Shown here piece after piece: positions 5,239 through 24,884 of a stretch of 36,526 nucleotides of DNA. Below the pieces are notes generated by a model. It did not search any database. It was not told the DNA's origin and saw nothing but the letters and a program-made list of their open reading frames with translations. The DNA is from Pseudomonadota bacterium (GTDB lineage: Bacteria; Pseudomonadota; Gammaproteobacteria; Xanthomonadales; Xanthomonadaceae), in assembly GCA_018241125.1 (NCBI GenBank), contig JAFEEL010000029.1, forward strand, positions 1 to 36,526. Reading direction: 5' to 3'. Numbering within the stretch: the first letter of the stretch is position 1; each line of letters opens with the position of its first letter. Made by a program: the position numbers and the translations under genes.

Positions 5239-5274
5239 GGTTGCGGGTCGTGCGGAGTTGATGCCGTGACCCAC

Positions 5275-5512
5275 GCGCCCGCGGCGCGGGCGCGTGGGTG
5301 GTTTCACGACGAGGCACTGGATGACCAGCCTTCGGCTGTTGAGAAGCGCTTCCCGCCTGCGCGGGGATGACGTCGTGACCCAAGCGCCCGCTGCGCGGGC
5401 GCGTGGGTGGTTTCACGACGAGGCACTGGATGACCAGCCTTCGGCTGTTGAGAAGCGCTTCCCGCCTGCGCGGGGATGACGTCGTGACCAAGGCGCCCGC
5501 TGCGCGGGCGCG
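5275..5512. repeat. 109-bp tandem repeat with palindromic ends
   Basis: Two near-identical 109-bp units (5275-5383 and 5384-5492) are followed by a third copy of the first 20 bp (5493-5512). Each unit opens with the palindrome GCGCCCGC-nn-GCGGGCGC, continues with 'GTGGTTTCACGACGAGGCAC', then a block read on the other strand as TTCTCAACAGCCGAAGGCTG, and ends in CCTGCGCGGGGATGACGTCG. Related blocks occur at 10518-10546 and 29876-29902. It lies between convergent genes (4957-5238 and 5521-5622), so the hairpins may also end transcription. No convincing gene is contained. Confidence 0.9.
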
Positions 5513-5520
5513 TCACGGCG

Positions 5521-14509: not shown

Positions 14510-15412
14510 ATGCGGCTGACATTTCCCAACGGCGAACACGCGGACGTGGTCGAATCCGGGCGGATCACGCTCGGCAGCGGCGCTGATAGCCGCGTGCGTC
14601 TGGACGGGCTGGCCGATCGCCACGCGGTGATCGCCAACGACCGGCGCGGCCTGTGGCTGGTGATCGAAAGCGCCGAGGCCACCGCGCACGTCAACGCCCG
14701 CCCGGTGAGCCGGCTGGCGTTGGTGCGCGCCGGCGACCTGATTTCGCTGGGGCAAGTGCAGGTGCTGTTGCGCAACGATGCCGATCCGGTCGAACCCAAG
14801 CTGCCGCCGGCGTCCTCGGCATTCACCCGCGCCGCCAGCGCCAATGCGCAGATTTGCTCGGAGCGTTTCTTGCTGCGCGGAGTCGGCGGGGCCCACTTCG
14901 GACAAAGTTTTCCGCTCAGCGACCCGGTGGTGGTGGGGCGTGGCGAGTCAGCGAACCTGCGCCTGGACGAACCGGCGATGGCCGATCGCCACGCGCGCAT
15001 CGAGTTGCACGGCGATCGCGTCGTGCTGCGCGACCTGTGTCAGGGGCAGGGCGAAGGCACGGTGCTCAACGGCGTGCGCGTGCGCAACGCGCTGCTGTCG
15101 CACGGCGATCAGCTGGCGTGGGAACGCAATCGCTACGTGCTCGAAGCGCCGGGGTTGAGTGCGCCGGTGCAGCGCCACGACGCCACACCGCTACCGCGCA
15201 CGCGTGCCGACGTCGCTGCGAGCGCCGGTGATCGCCCGGTGACCGGCGTGTTCACCATTCAGCCACGGGCGCCGGGCGAGACGCCAACGGCACAAACGCC
15301 GGCGGTATCGCCGCCCAGAAGCCACGCCGTGTGGTGGTTGATCCTTGCCGCCGCTGCCCTCGGTGCCGCCTTTGCGTGGTTGTTGCTGTCGGGTGCGAAG
15401 ATCGGCGCTTGA
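14510..15412 (+). CDS. Membrane-anchored protein with two FHA-like domains
   Basis: A 300-residue protein with two FHA-like modules (about 1-90 and 118-212), a Pro/Thr-rich linker and one C-terminal membrane helix (about 273-294), placing the FHA domains in the cytoplasm. FHA domains bind phosphothreonine. The second module keeps 'VVGRGE', 'ADRHARI' and 'TVLNGVRV', including the Arg, His and Asn positions, but the usual Ser three residues before the His is Ala (A158-D-R-H161). The first module has 'LGSGAD' in place of GR and the same ADRHA. Phosphopeptide binding is therefore possible but weakened. GGAGGGG just upstream supports this start. The Ser/Thr kinase at 18839-23080 is a candidate partner (inference). 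Confidence 0.82.
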   Translation: MRLTFPNGEHADVVESGRITLGSGADSRVRLDGLADRHAVIANDRRGLWLVIESAEATAHVNARPVSRLALVRAGDLISLGQVQVLLRNDADPVEPKLPPASSAFTRAASANAQICSERFLLRGVGGAHFGQSFPLSDPVVVGRGESANLRLDEPAMADRHARIELHGDRVVLRDLCQGQGEGTVLNGVRVRNALLSHGDQLAWERNRYVLEAPGLSAPVQRHDATPLPRTRADVAASAGDRPVTGVFTIQPRAPGETPTAQTPAVSPPRSHAVWWLILAAAALGAAFAWLLLSGAKIGA

Positions 15413-15465: not shown

Positions 15466-16437
15466 TCAGAAACTGCGGCTGATGCCGATGTCGAACGCGG
15501 CTTTGATCAGGTTTTCGTTGTCGCCGTCGAGCGTGTGCCCGATGTCGGCGGTCAACAGGTAGCGGTCGCTGAGCTGGTAGTCCACGCCGGCATGGATTTC
15601 GTTGAAGCTGACGTTGCGGATCGTGTCGTGGTACAGCAACACGTCCTGGTTCAACGAACCGTCCGGATTGAACAACGCGCCCGGCAGGCCGAGGCCGCCG
15701 TAGCTTTGCCGATGCGTCCATCCGACTCGCGCCGACAGCAGCGGCGAGAAGTAGTAGCCGACATCCAGCCCGATGGTGCTGTGGTTGACCTTGGTGATGG
15801 CGATCTTCTCCATCACCGAATACGACACGTCGCCGGTGATATATACGTTCTGCCACGGTCGCGGTAGCCGCCCACCGGCGGTGATGCCGAAGTCCAGTTC
15901 GGTCTGGTCGAGGCCGAGCGCGGATTCGCCGTAGAACTGGTAGTCGTGGGTCGGCGCGCCGTATCGCAGGTACGGCGTGAGCAGCACCGGCGCAGTCAAC
16001 CATTGGTAACGAACGCCGACGCTCCAGTCCTTCCAGCCGCCGCGGTAATGGCCGTCGTCGATGAAGCGCTGGCCGTGCGGATCGGTGAAGATGCGCGGAT
16101 CGTGGTCGGTGTGCGCGGCCATGTTGCTGCCGTAGGGCAGCGACGCGCTCACCGCCCAGCGGTCGGCGAATCCGTAATCCACGTTCAGATGCACCGTGCG
16201 GTAGTGGGCGATGCCGATCGTCCCCCGGTTGCCCTGGCTGTCGGTGCGATCCTCGACCAGCGCCTGCGCGTAGTCGGTGGAGATCGAACCGTGGCCCTTG
16301 TCCGGTACCGCGACTTGCGCGTGGGCTTGCGGCATCCACATCGTTGCGGCCAGCAGTGCGCACGTCGCCCATGCCGAGCCATGACGAGGCGAGATCGCCC
16401 CTGCGCGCGTGTGGTTGGTGCCAGTGTTTCCAAGCAT
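15466..16437 (-). CDS. Outer-membrane beta-barrel protein (paralogue 1)
   Basis: A 323-residue protein with a signal peptide (about residues 1-41, cleavage near 'PQAHA-QVAV'), alternating amphipathic strands throughout and a C-terminal '...DIGISRSF', the terminal Phe recognised by the BAM machinery. It shares blocks with the gene at 16665-17678: 'DKGHGS', 'H.N.DYG..DRWA.S..LP', 'FIDDGHYRGGWKDWSVGVRY' and 'DYQL.D.Y'. It resembles the loosely defined 'transporter/phenol degradation MetA'-type barrels, so transport is a guess. GGGGAG sits 8 bp before the ATG. A repeat element separates it from its paralogue. Confidence 0.85.
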   Translation of the reverse strand: MLGNTGTNHTRAGAISPRHGSAWATCALLAATMWMPQAHAQVAVPDKGHGSISTDYAQALVEDRTDSQGNRGTIGIAHYRTVHLNVDYGFADRWAVSASLPYGSNMAAHTDHDPRIFTDPHGQRFIDDGHYRGGWKDWSVGVRYQWLTAPVLLTPYLRYGAPTHDYQFYGESALGLDQTELDFGITAGGRLPRPWQNVYITGDVSYSVMEKIAITKVNHSTIGLDVGYYFSPLLSARVGWTHRQSYGGLGLPGALFNPDGSLNQDVLLYHDTIRNVSFNEIHAGVDYQLSDRYLLTADIGHTLDGDNENLIKAAFDIGISRSF

Positions 16438-16664: not shown

Positions 16665-17678
16665 TCAAAAACTGCGGCTGATGCCGAAGTTGGCGTCGTA
16701 GTTGTAGAAGTGCGTGTTGGCGACGGTCAATGTGCGGCTGATGTCGAACGACAACTGGTAATGATCGTTGAGCTGGTAATCCAGCCCGGCGGCCAGCGTG
16801 GTCATGCGCAGCAGGAACAGCTGGTCGTGGTAGAAGATGTTGTTGAAATTCGGCGAGCCGTCCGGGTTCGCGAAGCTCGACACAGCATCGGCACCATTGC
16901 CGAAGGAATTGTCGTGTTCGATCGACGCATGCCCGACCAGGCGCGGGGTGATGTTGTAGCCGAGTTTCAGGCTGATGGCGCTGTGGTTGACCGTGCGGTC
17001 GTCGTGCAGGAACTGGTTCGCGAGCGGATCGAGATGCTTCGTCGATTGCTCGAACGTGTAGGCAAGGCCCGCCTGCCAGAACAGGTTCTGCCACGGTGGC
17101 GGGAACCAGTTGCCGAGATACACGCCGACCTGCAACGCCTTCTGGTCGGTGCCGAGTGCGGAGTGCGCGAAGTAGGTGTAGGTGTGGTTGGGCTGGGTGT
17201 AGGCAACGTAGGGCGTGACCAAGAACGGTCGCGCAAGCCACTGGTAGCGCAGGCCCACGCTCCAGTCGGACCAGCCAGCGTGGTAGCGGCCATCGTCTTG
17301 GAAGCGCTGCCGGTTCGGGAACGGAAACACGCGCGGATCGTGCGGGTCGTTGCCGGTGTAGCGGTTGCTCTCGAACGGCAGGCCGACACTGATCGCCCAG
17401 CGATCGGACAGGCCGTAGTCGATGTTCAGGTGCGCGGTGCGATCGATGACCTTGCCGAAGTCGGCCAAATTTCCATCCGAAAAGCTGAGCTTGGTGGACT
17501 GCTTCTGCTCGTAGTCCAGCGTCAGCGAACCATGGCCCTTGCCGGGCAGCCAGGCTTGCGCCTGCGCGGGCAGCGTCGCGGCGGCGGAGCACAGCGCCAG
17601 CGCGCATGCCATCGCGGACGCGCAACTCCCCACCCGCGCGCGCAAGGGCGCGCGGGCAGTGCCTGTCAGGTATTTCAT
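16665..17678 (-). CDS. Outer-membrane beta-barrel protein (paralogue 2)
   Basis: A 337-residue protein with a signal peptide (about 1-42, ending 'PAQAQA') and a predicted barrel ending 'NFGISRSF' with terminal Phe. It is homologous along its length to the downstream barrel at 15466-16437, indicating tandem duplication with strong divergence. The ATG overlaps the stop of the exported receiver-like gene by 4 bp (ATGA at 17675-17678), so the two are translated from one mRNA. No ligand can be inferred; the family is usually annotated only as 'transporter'. Confidence 0.85.
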   Translation of the reverse strand: MKYLTGTARAPLRARVGSCASAMACALALCSAAATLPAQAQAWLPGKGHGSLTLDYEQKQSTKLSFSDGNLADFGKVIDRTAHLNIDYGLSDRWAISVGLPFESNRYTGNDPHDPRVFPFPNRQRFQDDGRYHAGWSDWSVGLRYQWLARPFLVTPYVAYTQPNHTYTYFAHSALGTDQKALQVGVYLGNWFPPPWQNLFWQAGLAYTFEQSTKHLDPLANQFLHDDRTVNHSAISLKLGYNITPRLVGHASIEHDNSFGNGADAVSSFANPDGSPNFNNIFYHDQLFLLRMTTLAAGLDYQLNDHYQLSFDISRTLTVANTHFYNYDANFGISRSF

Positions 17679-18193
17679 GACTTGGCGGAAGCCATCATGG
17701 TGTTGATGGATTTCAGGTATTGGCCGAGGCTCGCGCCGTCGACCAGAAAGGCCTTGTAGTGCTCTCGCACGTCGGGCAGGTCGCCCGCGCTGCGCGCGAC
17801 GACTGGCAGCAGGTGCGGCCGATCGGTCGCGCTGGCGGTGGCCGCGTCGACCGTGGCCATGCTGCCGATGGCGGCGATGACCACATCGTAATGATGGCCG
17901 CGCAGGGCGTCGGTCAATGCGTCGGCATCGCTGACGATGGTCAGTGTATGGCCGGCCTTCTTCAGGCCCGCGTACAGCGCGTCGCGATCGGCGTGCGACA
18001 TCGTCGAGTCCGGGGCGGAGTAGATCAGCACCGTCGCCGGACGCGGTGCGAGATAGCCCTGATAAGCCAAGCCCTTGCCGGTATTGAACTGCCCCTCACC
18101 GCAGGCCAGCGCGGTGGCGGGCAGTGCGGCCACGAACAGCGTTGCGATTGCCGCAGCCAGCAAACCGGATTGCAACGGGTGCGCGGTGTTCAT
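17675..18193 (-). CDS. Exported receiver-like (CheY-fold) protein without phospho-acceptor
   Basis: A 172-residue protein with a clear signal peptide (residues 1-30, 'LLAAAIATLFVAALPATALA') and Cys31 directly after. A lipoprotein site is possible, but Ala at -3 is a poor lipobox. The mature part reads like a response-regulator receiver: 'ATVLIYSAPDS' (strand 1), 'LYAGLKKAGHTLTIVSDADA', 'YDVVIAAIGS' (strand 3), 'LLPVVARSAG' (strand 4) and 'YKAFLVDGASLGQYLKSI' (strand 5). The Asp expected at the end of strand 3 is Ala108, and the Lys expected after strand 5 is Asp152, so it cannot signal by normal phosphotransfer. The stop overlaps the barrel gene. The fold assignment is by motif reading and needs structure prediction. 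Confidence 0.7.
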   Translation of the reverse strand: MNTAHPLQSGLLAAAIATLFVAALPATALACGEGQFNTGKGLAYQGYLAPRPATVLIYSAPDSTMSHADRDALYAGLKKAGHTLTIVSDADALTDALRGHHYDVVIAAIGSMATVDAATASATDRPHLLPVVARSAGDLPDVREHYKAFLVDGASLGQYLKSINTMMASAKS

Positions 18194-18347
18194 ATCGATC
18201 TCCCGATGTGACGGTGAACAACGAGTGCGGTAACCAACGCCTGATCCCAAGTGGATTGCCGAGCTTGCTGGATTGTGCGCCGGGACTTGGAACCGGGCCA
18301 GTGTCGCACCGCGTCAGCCGGCGAGTGGGCCGTCAGGCTCGTTGTGG

Positions 18348-18752
18348 TTACTGGCGGAAGCGATGCAGCGCGAAGGTGCCGCGAATGCCTTGCACATACC
18401 ACAACAGGCACACCACCATAGCCACCATCGCCAAGCCGTGCGGCACTCCGATCCTGGCGATCAGGAAGGCCACCTCGGCCAGAAATAGGCAGAACCCGAC
18501 AACCGCCGCGATGCGACTGCGTTTGTGGATGCCGAACATCACGGCGAAGAACAGTGCCGCGTTTCCAAACATGAAAGCCTGGATGTGGTCTGAGAGTAGC
18601 TGTTCGATTGCATCTGACGACACGGTTGCCTCAGCTGTGCCGACTGCGGTCAACAACGCGGCCAGGACACCCAACCGAGTAGCGTTCACGGCGGCCGCCT
18701 CGGTATCCAAAGTCGGCCATAAGCCGGCATTCCAGTTCTGGGTTTCAGACAT
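18348..18752 (-). CDS. Small integral membrane protein of unknown function
   Basis: A 134-residue protein starting MSETQNWNAGLWPTLDTEAA. It has about four hydrophobic segments (roughly residues 26-42, 58-73, 82-98 and 104-120) and a basic C-terminus (ALHRFRQ). Its plan of an N-terminal cytoplasmic stretch and four helices is like small MAPEG- or DoxX-sized proteins, but no family motif is recognised. GGGGAGAAATAAA immediately before the ATG at 18750-18752 is a strong ribosome-binding site, so the in-frame extension to 18806 is rejected. It lies 86 bp downstream of the kinase gene and 154 bp upstream of the exported receiver-like gene, all on the minus strand. Confidence 0.75.
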   Translation of the reverse strand: MSETQNWNAGLWPTLDTEAAAVNATRLGVLAALLTAVGTAEATVSSDAIEQLLSDHIQAFMFGNAALFFAVMFGIHKRSRIAAVVGFCLFLAEVAFLIARIGVPHGLAMVAMVVCLLWYVQGIRGTFALHRFRQ

Positions 18753-18838
18753 TTTATTTCTCCCCTGCATGGGCGGGCCGACGAGGTTTTCGCCCGCTTT
18801 CTTCAAGCACTACGCAAGTTGGCGCTGGGAATGACAGG

Positions 18839-21800
18839 CTAGCGAGCGGGAGTTGCCGAAGCGGCGGGTTCCAGGGTGATCGCGAACACTTCGGCGGGCA
18901 CCGTCGTGGTCACGTCGAGGCAGCGGATGGTGCGATCTGGATGCGGATTGGGCAGGCGCGGGGCGACGATCACGTCCGAACCCAGGCCGGTGAGCGCCCA
19001 TGTGGTATCGGTCGCAAACGCGAATGGCACGGCGGCGTCCTGACCCTCGTATCCGGGCGCGTCGCGGCCGGCGCGGATCGGCAACGCGGCACTGCCGCCG
19101 TCCACGTAGTGCAGGGTGACCTCGCCGAGCAACGTGTCCATCGGCAACGGCGTGATCAGGCTCGCCTCGAACAGCAGATGCACCGCCGCCACCGGCGTGG
19201 CCGGAACCGCGAGGCAGTGAATCGGATGTTGGATCGTGTCGGTGACCGGATCGACCATGCCGCGGATGTCGAAGTCGGTTCCGGCGATGCGTTGAACACC
19301 GGCCGGGTACGGCAGCAGGGTCGGCAGCACGTTGTAGTAGGTGTTGTGCACGGTGTCGGGCGCCATGTCGTAGTACGGCGTGAGGTCGAGCAGCAGCGGC
19401 GACGTGCCGACGCTGCGTTCGGGCACGACCACGCCGATGCGATTGGGTGCGGTCGTGTCGGAAGATGGGCGTGTGTCGGCGGCAGGCCAGCGCCCGGGAT
19501 CGTGCGCGCGCAGCGCGGCGCGTTCCGAAGGCAGCGGCGCTACGACGAATTGCTGGCTCTCGTTGCCGACGCTCAGGTGCGCCATCGCGTCGGCAAGCGC
19601 ATAGGTGCTGCGCGACTCGGGCGCGATCGGCCAGACCAGCCAATGGCCTTGCACGGTGCGTGCCAGCAGTTTGCGGTTGTCGGGCGAAAACGCGAGTTGT
19701 TCGATAGTGTCGATGGCGTTGGTGTCGGCCTGCAACGGCGGACCGATCGCTGCCATCGTCTCAACATCGTAGATCTGCACCTCGCGACGGAAGGCTCGTG
19801 CAAGCAGTCGGCCATCCGCGCTGAGGACGGTGGTGGCGACGGCATCGCTCGATGCGCTGCGTTCGAGCGTGCGCGTCGTGCCAGCAGGCGCTATCAGGAG
19901 ATCCTGCGTACTGCCGGCGACGAATGCACCGGCTGTCGTCGCTGCCACGCCGAGCGGGCGCGCTTGCGCGGTCGGGTGCTTCGCGATCACCTTGTCGGTA
20001 ACCGGGTTCCAGTCGATCAAGCTGTCGCTGCCCAGGCGCGGATCGCCCGCGCGCAACACCAGCAGCACGTCGTCGCCGCTTGTCGCGAAATCGGCCCATT
20101 GCACCGGCTGGTAGGGATCGTTCGCATACGCGCCGATCTTGCGCAGGCCATTCGTCGCGAACACGATGGTTGCGCCGTTCGCATCGTCGGTCGCGCCGAC
20201 CACGAGCAGCCTCGAGGCATCGGCCGAAAACGCGAGATGTCGCAATTGCCCCGGCAGCACCGCCTCGCCCGGCAGGCGCACGCCCTTGCGCGCATCGAAC
20301 AATTGCAGTTTTTCAACGAAACCATGCGAGCTGCCGCCGCCAAATGCCAACACCACGCGCGAGCCGTCCGCGCTGGCGAGCAGGCGCTCCGGACTGTTCT
20401 CCAGCGCGATCGGTGCGAAGCGTTCGCGCATCGTCGCGGTGTCGTAGGCGCGCAGTTCCGGGCCGACGGTCAGCACGAGCAAGCGTCCGCCATCCAGCAG
20501 TTCTGCGAAGCCCGGCGGCTGCGGCAATGTCAGCCACGGGGTGACGCCGATGCCGGATGCATCGACGATGCGCACCCGGTTCCATGCGACATCGACCAGT
20601 CGGTGTCCATCGAAATACGTCCGCTCCGGCATCTGGCGCGCGGCCATCGCCGGCAGCGTCGCCGGCAACGGCATCCGCCACAGGCGCAGTTGGCCGTCCA
20701 TGCCGGCGGTGGCGAGCAGGCCGGAAGTGAACGACCATGCGGCGGGATAGCGCCCGGACAAGCCATGCGGCGCGGCCGCGGCGGCGATGCGCAGCGCCGG
20801 GACCGCGCGCGGGCCGGGCAGCGGCAACCGCCACAGCGCGGTCTTGCCTTCGCCGCTGGCGATCAACAGGCGTTGGGCGTGGCTGAGGCCGACGCGCTGC
20901 ACCTTGAAATCCTGTTTCATCTGCCCGGCGACCAGCGAATCGCCCGTCCTGGCGTCGAACGCATCGACCGCGCCGTCCTCGCCGCCCACTGCCAGCCATG
21001 CATCGTCCTCGCTGAAACCAACCCAGGTGATCTCGCGTCCGCGCGCCTTGGGCAACTGGCGCAGCGTGCGGGTGGCGACGTCGAGCAGGAAGGCGCGCCC
21101 CTCGAAATCGCCGAGCGCCAGCGTCTTCCCATCGTGGCTCAGCGCCCACGCGAAGATGCCGGCATTGCCGGGGATGGCGATGTCGTGCGGGGTGGCGAGA
21201 TCGGCGAGATCGTACTGGCTCAGATAGCGCGCTACGTGCGGAATATAAAATGCGGCATGCGCCTGCGGATCGAGCAACCAGGGCATCTCGTAGTTCGCGA
21301 AAGACACCGGCACGAGCAGCGATTGCGGGCGCCAGGGCTGCGTTAGCCAGAGCTGCGCGCGATGCTGCTGATCGTGCAGGATGGCGTAGCCGCCGTCCGC
21401 GCTGTAGGTCGCATCGGCGAAATCCTTGAACGCGGCGGGAGGCTCGACGAGCGCGCCTTGATCCAGATCGATCATCCAGGTGTCGCCATCGTCCGGGCTT
21501 GCGATGGTCGTGAACCACTCCAGCGTGGCGCGCAGGCGATGGTTGTCGATGAAGCGCAGCAGTTGCACCGTGCGGCGCTGGCCGTCCGAACTGAATATCT
21601 GGGCGAGGCTGACGCGGCCACGTTCGCTGAGCGTCGCGGTGTCGTACCAGCGCACGGACTGGTCGTTGAACGCCACGGCGAGCGTGCGTGCGTCCGGGCT
21701 GATCGCGACCGCCATCGGGTTGGCGTCGGCGATGACGGTGCGGTCGATCAAGGTCGCGCCCAGTCCCTCCAACAGGCCCAGACGTCGCCGATCCACCGCT

Positions 21801-23080
21801 GCCGCGTCGGGCGCACCGGCTTTTTGCTCATCGACGATATTGGTGAGCAGCTTGGACATGGCCGCATAGCCGTCGCCGCTGCGCTGCAGGCCCAGCGCGG
21901 CATCGCGCCGGCTTTCCCACAGCAATCCCTGCGCGGTTCGCGCATTGCCCTGCGCGCGTCGCCACTGTTGCAAGGTGGCGAGCAGCCCGCCGATCAACAC
22001 CAGCACGGTCGCCGCGATGGCGAAGGCCAGGCGTGGGTCGCGGCGCGCCCAGCGCAGCGTGCGTTGCGCGCGATTGAGCGGGCGCACCGAAACCGGGCGG
22101 CCTTCGATGAAGCGGCTCAGGTCGTCGGCCAGTTCGCGTGCCCGCGTGTAGCGCGCGGCAGGATCCTTGGCCAGACACTTCAGGCAGATCGCGTCCAGAT
22201 CGGCCGGGATGCCCTTGCGCAGCGCGCGCGGCGGCTGCACCGTGCCATCGACCACCCGCTGCAAGGTTTCCTGCGGGGTCGCGCCGAGGAATGGCGGCGC
22301 ACCGGTCAGCAACTGGTAGAGGATCGCGCCGAGCCCGTAGATGTCGGTGGCCACCCCGATGTTCCGGGTTTGCGCCTGCGCCTGCTCAGGCGCCATGTAC
22401 GAAGGCGTCCCCGAGACTTCCTCGGCCTGCTCGGCCAGCGCCTCGTCGATGCGCCGCGCCAGCCCGAAGTCGGCCACCAGCGGTTCCCCGTGTTCGTCGA
22501 CCAGGATGTTGCCGGGCTTGAGATCCAGATGCAGCACACCCAGCCGGTGCGCGTAATCGAGCGCCTCGGCGACGGTGCGCATCAGGCGCGCGGCGACGAT
22601 CGGCGCGTACGGCCCGGATTGGCCCAGCAGCGTGGCCAGCGATTGGCCGCGCACGAGTTGCATCGAAAAATAATGCAGGTCTTCGTACGAGCCAGTCTCG
22701 TACACGGTGACGATGTTCGGGTGCTCCATCCGCGCCGCGGATTTGGCCTCCTCGCGAAAGCGCGTGATGAAGTCGGCCGAGGCCCACGGGCCGGCGGCCA
22801 GCAGCTTGAGCGCAACCTCGCGATCGAGCGCTTTCTGGCGCGCGCGGTAGACCACGCCCATGCCGCCCTGACCGATCTTTTCGAGCAGCTCGTACACCCC
22901 GAAGTCGCGTTGCGCGGGGTCACTCAAATCCAGATCGAGCGCCTCGGGCGGCAGGAACGCCAGATGGCGCGGCCCGATGGTGTGGCCGCCGGCCTGATCC
23001 ACGCCGTCGGCGAAGGCCAGGCGCGCCAGTCCGGTGGCCGCCGGCCCGATCGGTAGCGGCAGCACCTGAGTTTGGCTCAC
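18839..23080 (-). CDS. Transmembrane Ser/Thr protein kinase with beta-propeller region
   Basis: A 1413-residue protein. The kinase domain covers about residues 60-330: Gly loop 'IGQGGMGVVY' (69-78), Lys92 in 'VALK', catalytic 'HLDLKPGN' (Asp186), 'DFG' at 204-206, and 'GTPSYMAPEQ'. All catalytic residues are present. A membrane helix lies at about 350-370, followed by a helical stretch and about 780 residues of WD40/PQQ-like blades ('ISPDARTLAVAFNDQSVRWY', 'LSHDGKTLALGDFEGRAFLL'). The last ~180 residues ('LLLDLTPYYDM', 'GVQRIAGTDFDIRGM') resemble the terminal beta-rich region of planctomycete-type WD40 kinases (from memory). The membrane helix would place the propeller in the periplasm as a sensor. 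The ATG overlaps the upstream sigma gene by 4 bp, so sigma and kinase are made together. Confidence 0.92.
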   Translation of the reverse strand: MSQTQVLPLPIGPAATGLARLAFADGVDQAGGHTIGPRHLAFLPPEALDLDLSDPAQRDFGVYELLEKIGQGGMGVVYRARQKALDREVALKLLAAGPWASADFITRFREEAKSAARMEHPNIVTVYETGSYEDLHYFSMQLVRGQSLATLLGQSGPYAPIVAARLMRTVAEALDYAHRLGVLHLDLKPGNILVDEHGEPLVADFGLARRIDEALAEQAEEVSGTPSYMAPEQAQAQTRNIGVATDIYGLGAILYQLLTGAPPFLGATPQETLQRVVDGTVQPPRALRKGIPADLDAICLKCLAKDPAARYTRARELADDLSRFIEGRPVSVRPLNRAQRTLRWARRDPRLAFAIAATVLVLIGGLLATLQQWRRAQGNARTAQGLLWESRRDAALGLQRSGDGYAAMSKLLTNIVDEQKAGAPDAAAVDRRRLGLLEGLGATLIDRTVIADANPMAVAISPDARTLAVAFNDQSVRWYDTATLSERGRVSLAQIFSSDGQRRTVQLLRFIDNHRLRATLEWFTTIASPDDGDTWMIDLDQGALVEPPAAFKDFADATYSADGGYAILHDQQHRAQLWLTQPWRPQSLLVPVSFANYEMPWLLDPQAHAAFYIPHVARYLSQYDLADLATPHDIAIPGNAGIFAWALSHDGKTLALGDFEGRAFLLDVATRTLRQLPKARGREITWVGFSEDDAWLAVGGEDGAVDAFDARTGDSLVAGQMKQDFKVQRVGLSHAQRLLIASGEGKTALWRLPLPGPRAVPALRIAAAAAPHGLSGRYPAAWSFTSGLLATAGMDGQLRLWRMPLPATLPAMAARQMPERTYFDGHRLVDVAWNRVRIVDASGIGVTPWLTLPQPPGFAELLDGGRLLVLTVGPELRAYDTATMRERFAPIALENSPERLLASADGSRVVLAFGGGSSHGFVEKLQLFDARKGVRLPGEAVLPGQLRHLAFSADASRLLVVGATDDANGATIVFATNGLRKIGAYANDPYQPVQWADFATSGDDVLLVLRAGDPRLGSDSLIDWNPVTDKVIAKHPTAQARPLGVAATTAGAFVAGSTQDLLIAPAGTTRTLERSASSDAVATTVLSADGRLLARAFRREVQIYDVETMAAIGPPLQADTNAIDTIEQLAFSPDNRKLLARTVQGHWLVWPIAPESRSTYALADAMAHLSVGNESQQFVVAPLPSERAALRAHDPGRWPAADTRPSSDTTAPNRIGVVVPERSVGTSPLLLDLTPYYDMAPDTVHNTYYNVLPTLLPYPAGVQRIAGTDFDIRGMVDPVTDTIQHPIHCLAVPATPVAAVHLLFEASLITPLPMDTLLGEVTLHYVDGGSAALPIRAGRDAPGYEGQDAAVPFAFATDTTWALTGLGSDVIVAPRLPNPHPDRTIRCLDVTTTVPAEVFAITLEPAASATPAR

Positions 23081-23826
23081 TCCGAATGCCCGGACAGCAT
23101 TCGTGCCAGCGACGTCCGTTCGGCTTCCAGATCGGCCGGGCTGGCCACGGTTTCCAGCAATTCTTCCTCGGCCAGTTCGCGAAAGCGCTGGCGCATCCGC
23201 TTGACCGCGATCGCCACCACCATTGGCGGCAACTTCAACTGCTGCGCAAGTTCCTGATACTGGCCGGCGACCGGCTCGGCGGTGAGGAAGGGCTGCAACA
23301 CCTCGAACATTGCGTTGCGCCCGCCCTGCGCGGCTTCGGCGGCCAGCCGCCGCAGGCTGCGACTGAGCACTTCCAGCGCGAAGCTGCGGTGATAGGCCTG
23401 CGTGGGCGTAACGTTGGCATCGGGTTCAGCGGCCAACCGGGATTCGAGTTGCTCGGGGGTGAACGGTGGCACCAGCCCTTGCTGTGCGATCAACGACTGG
23501 TAGTTGCGCCAGTCGTCGCGCAAGAATGCATTCATGCGGTCGAGCAGGAAATCGCGGAATCGACCCTTGCCGCGCGGATCGGCCTCGGCCAGCGCGCCGG
23601 GCAGGTAGGCGAAGAAGGCCAGACACAGCGCATTGGCCGACGCGGCATCGTGCCCGCTGCGGCGCACGTAGGCGTAGATCGGATACCAGTAGCGCTGCGA
23701 CAAATCGCGCAGCGAGCGCGCCGCGAGATCGGCGCTGGGATGCCGCAGATCCAGCACGAGCGACCAGCGCGTTTGCGAGAAGTGTTGTGGCGAAACGCGG
23801 GCGCTGCTCGTGGAATGGTTGGCCAT
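23077..23826 (-). CDS. ECF-type sigma factor, atypical region 2.2, coupled to kinase
   Basis: A 249-residue protein of the kinase-linked ECF sigma group that opens with a 'TQWS'-like motif (here 'FSQTRWSLVLDL', residues 16-27). Region 2 includes 'YWYPIYAYVRRSGHD'; a linker follows, then region 4 helix-turn-helix near 'YQELAQQLKLPPMVVAIAVK' (about 190-210). The usual acidic DAEDLTQ motif of region 2.2 is replaced by 'DAASANALCLAFF' (60-72), which has lost all but one acidic residue and carries Ser63. In V. parahaemolyticus EcfP a comparable defect is repaired by kinase phosphorylation of a Thr. GGGGAGGA 8 bp before the ATG is a strong ribosome-binding site. The stop overlaps the kinase start by 4 bp. 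Confidence 0.82.
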   Translation of the reverse strand: MANHSTSSARVSPQHFSQTRWSLVLDLRHPSADLAARSLRDLSQRYWYPIYAYVRRSGHDAASANALCLAFFAYLPGALAEADPRGKGRFRDFLLDRMNAFLRDDWRNYQSLIAQQGLVPPFTPEQLESRLAAEPDANVTPTQAYHRSFALEVLSRSLRRLAAEAAQGGRNAMFEVLQPFLTAEPVAGQYQELAQQLKLPPMVVAIAVKRMRQRFRELAEEELLETVASPADLEAERTSLARMLSGHSE

Positions 23827-23867
23827 GCGGTGGATCCTCCCCGGACGAATCTACGCCAAAGCGCGGC

Positions 23868-23984
23868 GGGGATTACATCCGCGGATTCCACCCGTGGATT
23901 ACTCCGGTGGATTACACCGGTGGTTTACGCCCGCGAATTGCATCCGGTGATTACACCGGAAAATTCGGTGCGGGGATTACATCG
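23868..23984. repeat. Nine-unit 13-bp tandem array between two sigma genes
   Basis: Nine contiguous 13-bp units without gaps, plus-strand consensus GNGGATTACACCG (minus strand CGGTGTAATCCNC). Units include GGGGATTACATCC, GTGGATTACTCCG, GTGGATTACACCG, GGTGATTACACCG and GGGGATTACATCG; the sixth and eighth are most degenerate. The last unit overlaps the 3' end (ATG-TAA) of the upstream sigma gene, and the first ends 41 bp before the second sigma ATG. Adjacent units create inverted repeats such as CCGGTG-ATTA-CACCGG (23944-23959). It occupies the whole 150-bp spacer except the ribosome-binding region. Confidence 0.92.
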
Positions 23985-24675
23985 GTGCGGGCTGTCCGAC
24001 CGCGGCCTGGATGGCTTCCACTTCGGCGCGGATGCCGCCGGGGTCGCCGAGCGTGCATCCGACTTCGGCGCTCACCAATTGCTGCAAACGCTCGCGCAGG
24101 CGATGCACGGCGACTGCCACGGTGTTGCGGCTCATGCCGAAACGCTGCGACACCAGCGCGTAGTCCTGCCCGTCTGGCGATTCGAACAGGAACTCGCCGA
24201 GCGCCGCGAACAACTCGGCCTTGCCGGCCGCCGCCGCTTCGGCGCGCAACGCGCTCACCGCGCGGGCCACCACGGTTTGCGCCCACACGCGCTCGAAGAC
24301 TTCCTCGGGGGTGGGAGCGCTGGCCGGCTCGACGCTGGCGTCGAGGACGACGTGGATCGCGCCGCCGCCGCGCCGCGCGGCCCCGACGCGGCGCTGCTCG
24401 GAAATCACGAAGTGCTTGAGCGCGCTCAGCAGGAATGCGCGGAAGCTGCCCTTGTCCGGATCGGCGCGCTGGTGCAGGCGCTGGCTCAATAGATGCGCGA
24501 AAAACGACTGGGTGAGGTCTTCGGCTTCTTCGCGGGCCAATCCGCGGCTGCGCAGGTAGGCCAGCACCGGCGTGCGATAGCAGTGGCACAGGCGCGCCAG
24601 CGCCTCGTCGGAACCGGCATCGTTGCCGGCACTGGCGAGGATCATGCTCCACTGTGTCGTCTCGAAACCTGCCAT
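23977..24675 (-). CDS. ECF-type sigma factor, canonical region 2.2
   Basis: A 232-residue sigma factor of the same kinase-linked ECF group: 'FETTQWSMILASAG' at residues 4-17, acidic region 2.2 'EEAEDLTQSFF' (49-59), 'DKGSFRAFLLSALKHFV', and region 4 'YALVSQRFGMSRNTVAVAVHRLRERLQQL' near the C-terminus. Unlike the downstream paralogue it keeps the acidic residues expected to contact RNA polymerase, so it should work without phosphorylation. The MAGFETTQ start is chosen by family resemblance; in-frame ATGs at 24681 and 24711 are alternatives, none with a good ribosome-binding site. The stop lies inside the 13-bp array. No anti-sigma factor gene is adjacent. Confidence 0.82.
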   Translation of the reverse strand: MAGFETTQWSMILASAGNDAGSDEALARLCHCYRTPVLAYLRSRGLAREEAEDLTQSFFAHLLSQRLHQRADPDKGSFRAFLLSALKHFVISEQRRVGAARRGGGAIHVVLDASVEPASAPTPEEVFERVWAQTVVARAVSALRAEAAAAGKAELFAALGEFLFESPDGQDYALVSQRFGMSRNTVAVAVHRLRERLQQLVSAEVGCTLGDPGGIRAEVEAIQAAVGQPAPM

Positions 24676-24884
24676 GCGCATCGTCGGCCAGTCCGGCGTC
24701 CCCACGCCCATCTTGCCATGCCTGCCGTTACCGGCCCCTGCCCGGACGGGGCAAGGCCAAGGCTTGCAATCGGCCGCGCAGTTTGTTGCACTGCGCCATC
24801 GACGGGGATCGATCCGTCGCCCGCCGGTTGCTTGTTTCAGGTTTCAGGCCCCCAGATCCCCAACTCACAATCCGAGGACATCCG

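Follow-up and report, generated by a model that had tools for sequence, protein, structure and literature searches.

Cell-surface signalling of the FecI-FecR-FecA type relies on an ECF sigma factor, a FecR-type anti-sigma factor and a receptor with an N-terminal signalling domain. The sigma-like domain of PhyR, for its part, belongs to the alphaproteobacterial general stress response. In Bacillus subtilis, SigO and RsoA are two sigma-like proteins encoded by neighbouring genes, as described in PMC8103513. The sigma factors whose activation by a kinase has experimental support are, according to two reports (PMC8999054, PMC13147305), members of ECF43, represented by EcfP-PknT in Vibrio parahaemolyticus and EcfK-PknS in Xanthomonas citri. 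Further ECF groups linked to Ser/Thr kinases are ECF59, ECF61, ECF62, ECF217 and ECF283.

The window analysed here (the whole stretch of 36,526 nucleotides) carries on its minus strand, as read from the ORF list and the sequence, the genes for a sigma factor (sigma1), a second sigma-like protein (sigma2) and a transmembrane Ser/Thr kinase, in that order (Table 1). The coordinates match the sigma-sigma-kinase unit described in an earlier note on this DNA, and so does the 4-bp overlap of the sigma2 and kinase genes (23077-23080); Asp186 of the kinase, named there as the catalytic residue, is the aspartate of HxD. No anti-sigma gene had been noticed and, indeed, Pfam scans of eight ORFs in the window matched no anti-sigma family. 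The two sigma factors had also been placed in one TQWS-type group, which holds only loosely: sigma1 has TQWS and sigma2 TRWS, and the two proteins share 32% identity.

Table 1. Features of the sigma-sigma-kinase locus and its surroundings in the window
Feature	Position	Strand	Remarks
sigma1, canonical ECF-type sigma factor with N-terminal TQWS	23977..24675	-	ATG at 24675; alternative longer ATG start at 24711
13-bp tandem array with GTAATC-like half-sites	23870..23957	-	6.8 copies; between sigma1 and sigma2
Bipartite promoter-like site GATGTAATC-N14-GCGTAG	23851..23879	-	between sigma1 and sigma2; its end lies 25 nt before the sigma2 ATG
sigma2, sigma-fold paralogue whose surfaces for core binding and DNA contact are degenerate	23077..23826	-	249 aa
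Transmembrane Ser/Thr kinase with propeller-like C-terminal part	18839..23080	-	1413 aa; GTG start
Kinase motifs			HLD (non-RD) loop 184-186; DFG at 204; hydrophobic segment from about 351
Second, weaker motif copy CCTGTCATTCCCAGCGCCAACTTGCGTAG	18810..18838	-	between kinase and next genes; matrix score 12.2, below the cut-off of 13
Hydrophobic ORF, membrane protein as judged by eye	18348..18806	-	152 aa; starts 33 bp after the kinase; true start uncertain; without Pfam match
Exported protein (by eye)	17675..18250	-	no Pfam family over cut-off; relatives also stand behind the kinases of other triads
Outer-membrane beta-barrel protein, candidate output	16665..17678	-	Pfam OMP_b-brl 30.2, over the cut-off of 28.7; recurs in relatives
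Second outer-membrane beta-barrel protein, candidate output	15466..16437	-	Pfam OMP_b-brl 28.5 against a cut-off of 28.7; recurs in relatives

Three such triads are present in the source genome, which comprises 3.07 Mb in 67 contigs (C21, C13 and C8, the second sigma of C8 being divergent), together with two more sigma-kinase neighbours, on one strand in C61 and on opposite strands in C4. When the sigma2 protein was used as query, 24 of 247 genomes of the same family matched at E 1e-5, many with adjacent pairs. A search with a sigma2 alignment matched, at E 1e-10, 25 of 299 genomes in a sample of the order and 3 of 369 in a sample of the class, all three from the same order; sigma1-class genes are among these matches. 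By scanning genome contigs we obtained 78 distinct loci (the best 80 of 155 were confirmed). The loci used contain 160 distinct sigma genes, 52 of them of the sigma2 class; L048 and L068 were set apart, which leaves 50, and the divergent forms of L040, L048 and L068 are excluded from the main sigma2 counts. We observed that a sigma1-class gene lies within 400 bp upstream of 45 of these 50 genes (in L058 as a fragment only) and that a kinase gene lies downstream of 45, both neighbours being present in 40 cases. In 7 of the 10 misses the contig was too short: this holds for three of the five genes that lack sigma1 and for four of the five that lack a kinase. The order of the triad is not due to chance, because it recurs in many genomes. 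A conservation limited to this strain, which the earlier note had named as grounds for giving up its reading, is not what we found, and the kinase belongs to the unit.

Among the matches listed, the sigma2-class records are of the Lysobacterales type only; their titles name Lysobacterales, Lysobacteraceae, Rhodanobacter(aceae), Dokdonella, Pseudoxanthomonas, Luteimonas, Arenimonas or Rudaea, and the remaining ones just Proteobacteria or Gammaproteobacteria. Triads are present, for example, in Rhodanobacter sp. B05 (L080) and Pseudoxanthomonas daejeonensis DSM 17801 (L092). In the loci from Verrucomicrobia, Planctomycetota and Acidobacteria, the sigmas score better with the sigma1 profile, although for some of them the margin is small, and they lie outside the sigma2 clade. 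A literature search (best-ranked matches, mostly without subscription papers) returned no sigma-sigma-kinase triad. Some loci are more crowded: L081, L104, L090/L096, L097 and L115 have either a pair of triads within about 15 kb or a single kinase with three sigma genes nearby. Some triads also seem to sit between pyrH-like and ribosome recycling factor housekeeping genes; in L091 (8519-9235), which lacks sigma1, the gene before sigma2 belongs to the amino acid kinase family and looks by eye like pyrH, and in L094 (4605-5270), which lacks the kinase, the gene after sigma2 encodes a ribosome recycling factor.

The first sigma of the unit had been taken for the canonical one, and our analysis agrees. 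In a narrow Pfam pass, sigma1 exceeded the cut-offs of Sigma70_r2 (26.8 vs 24) and Sigma70_ECF (22.1 vs 21.1); its region 4 was below the Pfam cut-off, yet it was covered in structural alignments, and NCBIfam TIGR02937 gave 39.6 bits, below the cut-off of 42.9. Weak profile matches (E 0.0009-0.002) were obtained with M. tuberculosis SigE and with PDB entries 6in7/8z6g (AlgU), and the AF2 model has a pLDDT of 87. Region 2.2 is intact (EEAEDLTQSFF), so that sigma1 possesses what defines an ECF sigma factor, namely regions 2 and 4 and the core-binding acids of region 2.2. These residues hardly vary: in the 46 triad sigma1 proteins that were aligned (of 48), D, E/D and Q are each found in 46/46, and in the unpaired sigmas D is found in 59/59 and Q in 56/59.

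Sigma2 presents a different picture. The protein of the window passed no Pfam sigma model, scored 19.6 bits with TIGR02937 and has in region 2.2 the sequence ASANALCLAFF, that is, neither the core-binding acids nor the Gln by which ECF sigma factors bind core. Throughout the class, the E position is acidic in 5/50 proteins, and the Gln position holds Gln in 6/50 and Arg in 26/50; an acid is retained at the D position in 36/50. These last acids and the few remaining Gln suggest that some members might still bind core, which speaks against the circuit proposed below. Also gone are the KRGG basic loop, basic residues in region 2.4 and the NT in region 4.2; KRLRQRFREL is retained and the sigma4 part is strongly conserved. 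The AF2 model of sigma2 (pLDDT 89.5) has sigma factors as its top structural matches, several of them from anti-sigma complexes; in Foldseek, none of the matches got as low as E 0.001, another point against that circuit. In both models, sigma1 and sigma2, helices for the two sigma domains are present and the structural matches extend across both. In a tree of 154 rows, which omitted three fragments and the divergent L040, L048 and L068, the 50 sigma2-class proteins make up one side of a branch with an SH-aLRT of 100; class-specific invariant residues are present in this clade and dN/dS is below 1 in 8 of 8 close pairs. Sigma2 has a single origin and is under purifying selection, and it looks constrained and, according to its model, sigma-folded.

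The kinase of the window matches Pfam Pkinase at 8e-52, its propeller/WD40 matches being mostly below curated cut-offs. The catalytic loop reads HLDLKPxN, not HRD, in 43/43 readable triad kinases (2 of 45 were unreadable); in these 43 proteins DFG follows and, with the exception of L116, a hydrophobic segment is found 162-176 residues past HxD. Unpaired kinases of the Lysobacterales type mostly have HLD as well, and those of Planctomycetota, Verrucomicrobia and relatives have HRD, L121 being the sole exception. When four triad kinases were scanned with Pfam, three gave propeller-like matches, again mostly below curated cut-offs, and that of L085 the kinase domain alone. We presume that the propeller is periplasmic and that the kinase may phosphorylate either sigma. 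An FHA-domain protein, a possible phosphothreonine reader, is encoded on the plus strand at 14510-15412, some 3.4 kb past the kinase gene.

A promoter-like motif is located between the two sigma genes. The window site scored 27.0 with a matrix that had this very site in its training set, and 18.9 with a matrix trained on other loci. GT[A/C]ATC occurs in 29/45 sigma1-sigma2 intergenes vs 3/45 regions upstream of sigma1, and the second-box core follows at spacing 16 in 24/45 intergenes, any other spacing being found in at most 5. In a hold-out, a matrix built from 16 sites in 20 loci detected a site in 13 of 24 other loci, vs 0.3% of shuffled sequences and 2/24 regions upstream of sigma1; the motif having first been spotted by eye in all loci, this measures the generality of the matrix and is not an independent discovery. 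With the full matrix (a tally that omitted L048, L058, L068 and genes without upstream sigma1), a site is present between the sigmas in 29/44 triads, and in 27 of these the sigma2 profile match begins 50-65 nt after the site. The same matrix found sites near the kinase end in 8/44 triads, with scores of 16 and 19 in the relatives L043 and L047, and within 400 bp upstream of sigma1 in 4/44. Two counts go against the circuit: 15/44 triads have no site between the sigmas, and of the 20 unpaired-sigma loci among L041-L074 only 7 have a site scoring above 20. Four of these seven loci come from genomes (G038, G136, G173 and G082) with a single sigma match, of the sigma1 class, in which genome searches found no sigma2-class gene. 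Since the motif occurs without a detected sigma2-class gene, the sigma1-class proteins are its likelier readers; judging from the sequences, they probably read the GTAATC motif.

Other repeats and genes lie in the vicinity. The pattern of the tandem array between the sigmas, CCGGTGTAATCNNCSGG, occurs once in the source genome, at the window locus, and a 109-bp tandem repeat (2.3 copies, 97% matches) is found at 5265-5513 of the window. In 17 triads and 6 unpaired loci, a gene of about 230 aa without Pfam match stands upstream of the sigma1-class gene (e.g. L080 8421-9098); in L045, L051 and L071 this gene family is preceded by its own copy of the motif.

Behind the triad kinases we observed a TonB-dependent receptor gene in 15/29 cases, genes for a small barrel and/or the associated exported protein in 10/29 (in L122 the exported protein alone, without small barrel), and neither in 4/29; kinases with less than 1.5 kb behind them were omitted from this count. 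Unpaired kinases have the same genes behind them in 2 of 31 rows; one of these two is the triad kinase of L115, which entered the count a second time through an extra sigma gene. All five receptors scanned with Pfam have plug and barrel, and three small-barrel candidates gave no Pfam match. The window locus is of the small-barrel type. In L085 (18019-20724), a gene for a GGDEF protein with a weak regulator-propeller match comes shortly after the triad receptor gene.

The earlier note had inferred that the kinase acts on sigma2, with EcfP/PknT as the known precedent; the motif between the sigmas, the outer-membrane genes and the degenerate surfaces of sigma2 had escaped it. In an EcfP-like reading, sigma2 would be silent until phosphorylated for RNAP binding, and sigma1 would act independently or upstream. 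The gene order and overlap, and the lack of an anti-sigma match among the eight ORFs scanned, are in keeping with this idea, as are a Ser inside the window motif (ASANALC) and the loss of region 2.2 acids, which recalls ECF43 (PMC8999054, PMC13147305). But Ser/Thr occupies the EcfP phosphosite position in only 1/50 sigma2-class proteins (it is Asn in the window) and the position two residues before in 5/50, the core-binding Gln has mostly given way, often to Arg, the basic loop has disappeared, and the promoter-like motif also stands in genomes that gave no sigma2-class gene. In the region 2.2 motif, the T position holds Ser/Thr in 24/50 (31/48 in sigma1); a phosphosite may lie there, which counts against the proposed circuit, and EcfK is described as using linker phosphosites too (PMC13147305). 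On balance we consider EcfP-like activation unlikely and not supported; judged by its residues, sigma2 is more probably a regulator resembling a sigma factor than a sigma activated by phosphorylation.

Sigma1 and sigma2 could also form a heterodimer, both being required for promoter recognition as for SigO-RsoA. Their fixed pairing would fit, as would the strong conservation of the sigma4 part of sigma2, the half mainly kept by the three divergent forms. The divergences of sigma1 and sigma2 are correlated (r 0.80 in 36 and in 29 triads), but shared descent alone yields such a correlation; moreover, both proteins carry both domains, unlike SigO-RsoA, and unpaired sigma1-class genes are common, some of them with the motif, so that we regard a joint sigma factor as distinctly improbable. 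In the same distance test, which omitted L048, L058, L068, L095 and triads without a kinase above 300 bits, the kinase domain favours sigma2 as the link between sigma1 and kinase (partial correlation 0.48 for sigma2-kinase given sigma1, 0.22 for sigma1-kinase given sigma2) and the kinase C-terminus reverses this (-0.03 and 0.20, respectively), which argues against the proposed circuit. That sigma2 is merely the non-functional remnant of a tandem duplication would account for its degenerate surfaces and for the very divergent or shortened L040, L048 and L068; the single clade of 50 rows, its invariant residues and the dN/dS values in all eight pairs make this very hard to believe.

The reading that we prefer, and to which we give even chances, is that the triad serves Lysobacterales as a circuit dedicated to envelope signalling, in which sigma1 drives, and sigma2 and the kinase feed back on sigma1. 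Sigma1 would be a working ECF sigma factor reading the GTAATC-N14-second-box promoter between its own gene and sigma2; it would thereby turn on sigma2, the kinase and the outer-membrane genes that follow the kinase. The propeller kinase would sense the envelope. Sigma2, having apparently kept the two-domain fold and lost the surfaces for the beta' clamp and the promoter, would not be an independent sigma. It could be a kinase-controlled, sigma-like partner which tunes the availability of sigma1, most likely as a mimic or modulator and less likely as a co-subunit. A promoter-like signal together with a degenerate look-alike beside a kinase suggests, at the level of sequence, that the look-alike regulates the normal sigma. 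We infer that sigma1 reads the motif and that sigma2 binds to sigma1 or to the kinase, and likewise the sign of the feedback. The unpaired sigmas do without sigma2, and this weighs against the circuit.

More tentatively, and with less than even confidence, sigma2 may be the founder of a family of sigma mimics under Ser/Thr-kinase control, in which a duplicated ECF sigma factor would have lost binding to RNAP and promoter and would now regulate its paralogue, with neither receiver domain nor classical anti-sigma factor, through local feedback from a conserved intersigma promoter. The gene adjoining the kinase encodes a sigma-fold protein seemingly unable to act as a sigma factor, and its neighbour is a canonical sigma for which there is a candidate target promoter. 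This points to a possible route from sigma paralogue to regulator. The circuit is directly testable, since promoter and outputs are predicted.

Compared with known systems, the triad shares with ECF43 an ECF-type sigma gene adjoining a transmembrane Hanks-type kinase, the lack of a detected anti-sigma factor and a kinase-proximal sigma with altered region 2.2 acids. It differs in having two sigma genes, the canonical one keeping its acids; in addition, EcfP has Thr in place of a region 2.2 acid, whereas sigma2 has no fixed phosphorylatable residue there and has lost further sigma surfaces. Unlike PhyR, the triad has a Ser/Thr kinase instead of a His kinase; the 249 aa of sigma2 are filled by the sigma-like part, without Pfam receiver match, and no NepR-type anti-sigma was matched among the eight window ORFs scanned. 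It resembles SigO-RsoA in its two neighbouring sigma-like genes, but the domains sigma2 and sigma4 are split between SigO and RsoA, whereas each triad sigma appears, from the models, to carry both. The link between an ECF sigma and a TonB-dependent receptor gene in about half of the triads recalls FecI-FecR-FecA; here, a kinase stands where Fec has its anti-sigma, and the five receptors scanned gave no match to a signalling domain. ECF43, PhyR, SigO-RsoA and the Fec-type systems are the nearest known relatives of the triad, and each of them departs from it in at least one defining feature.
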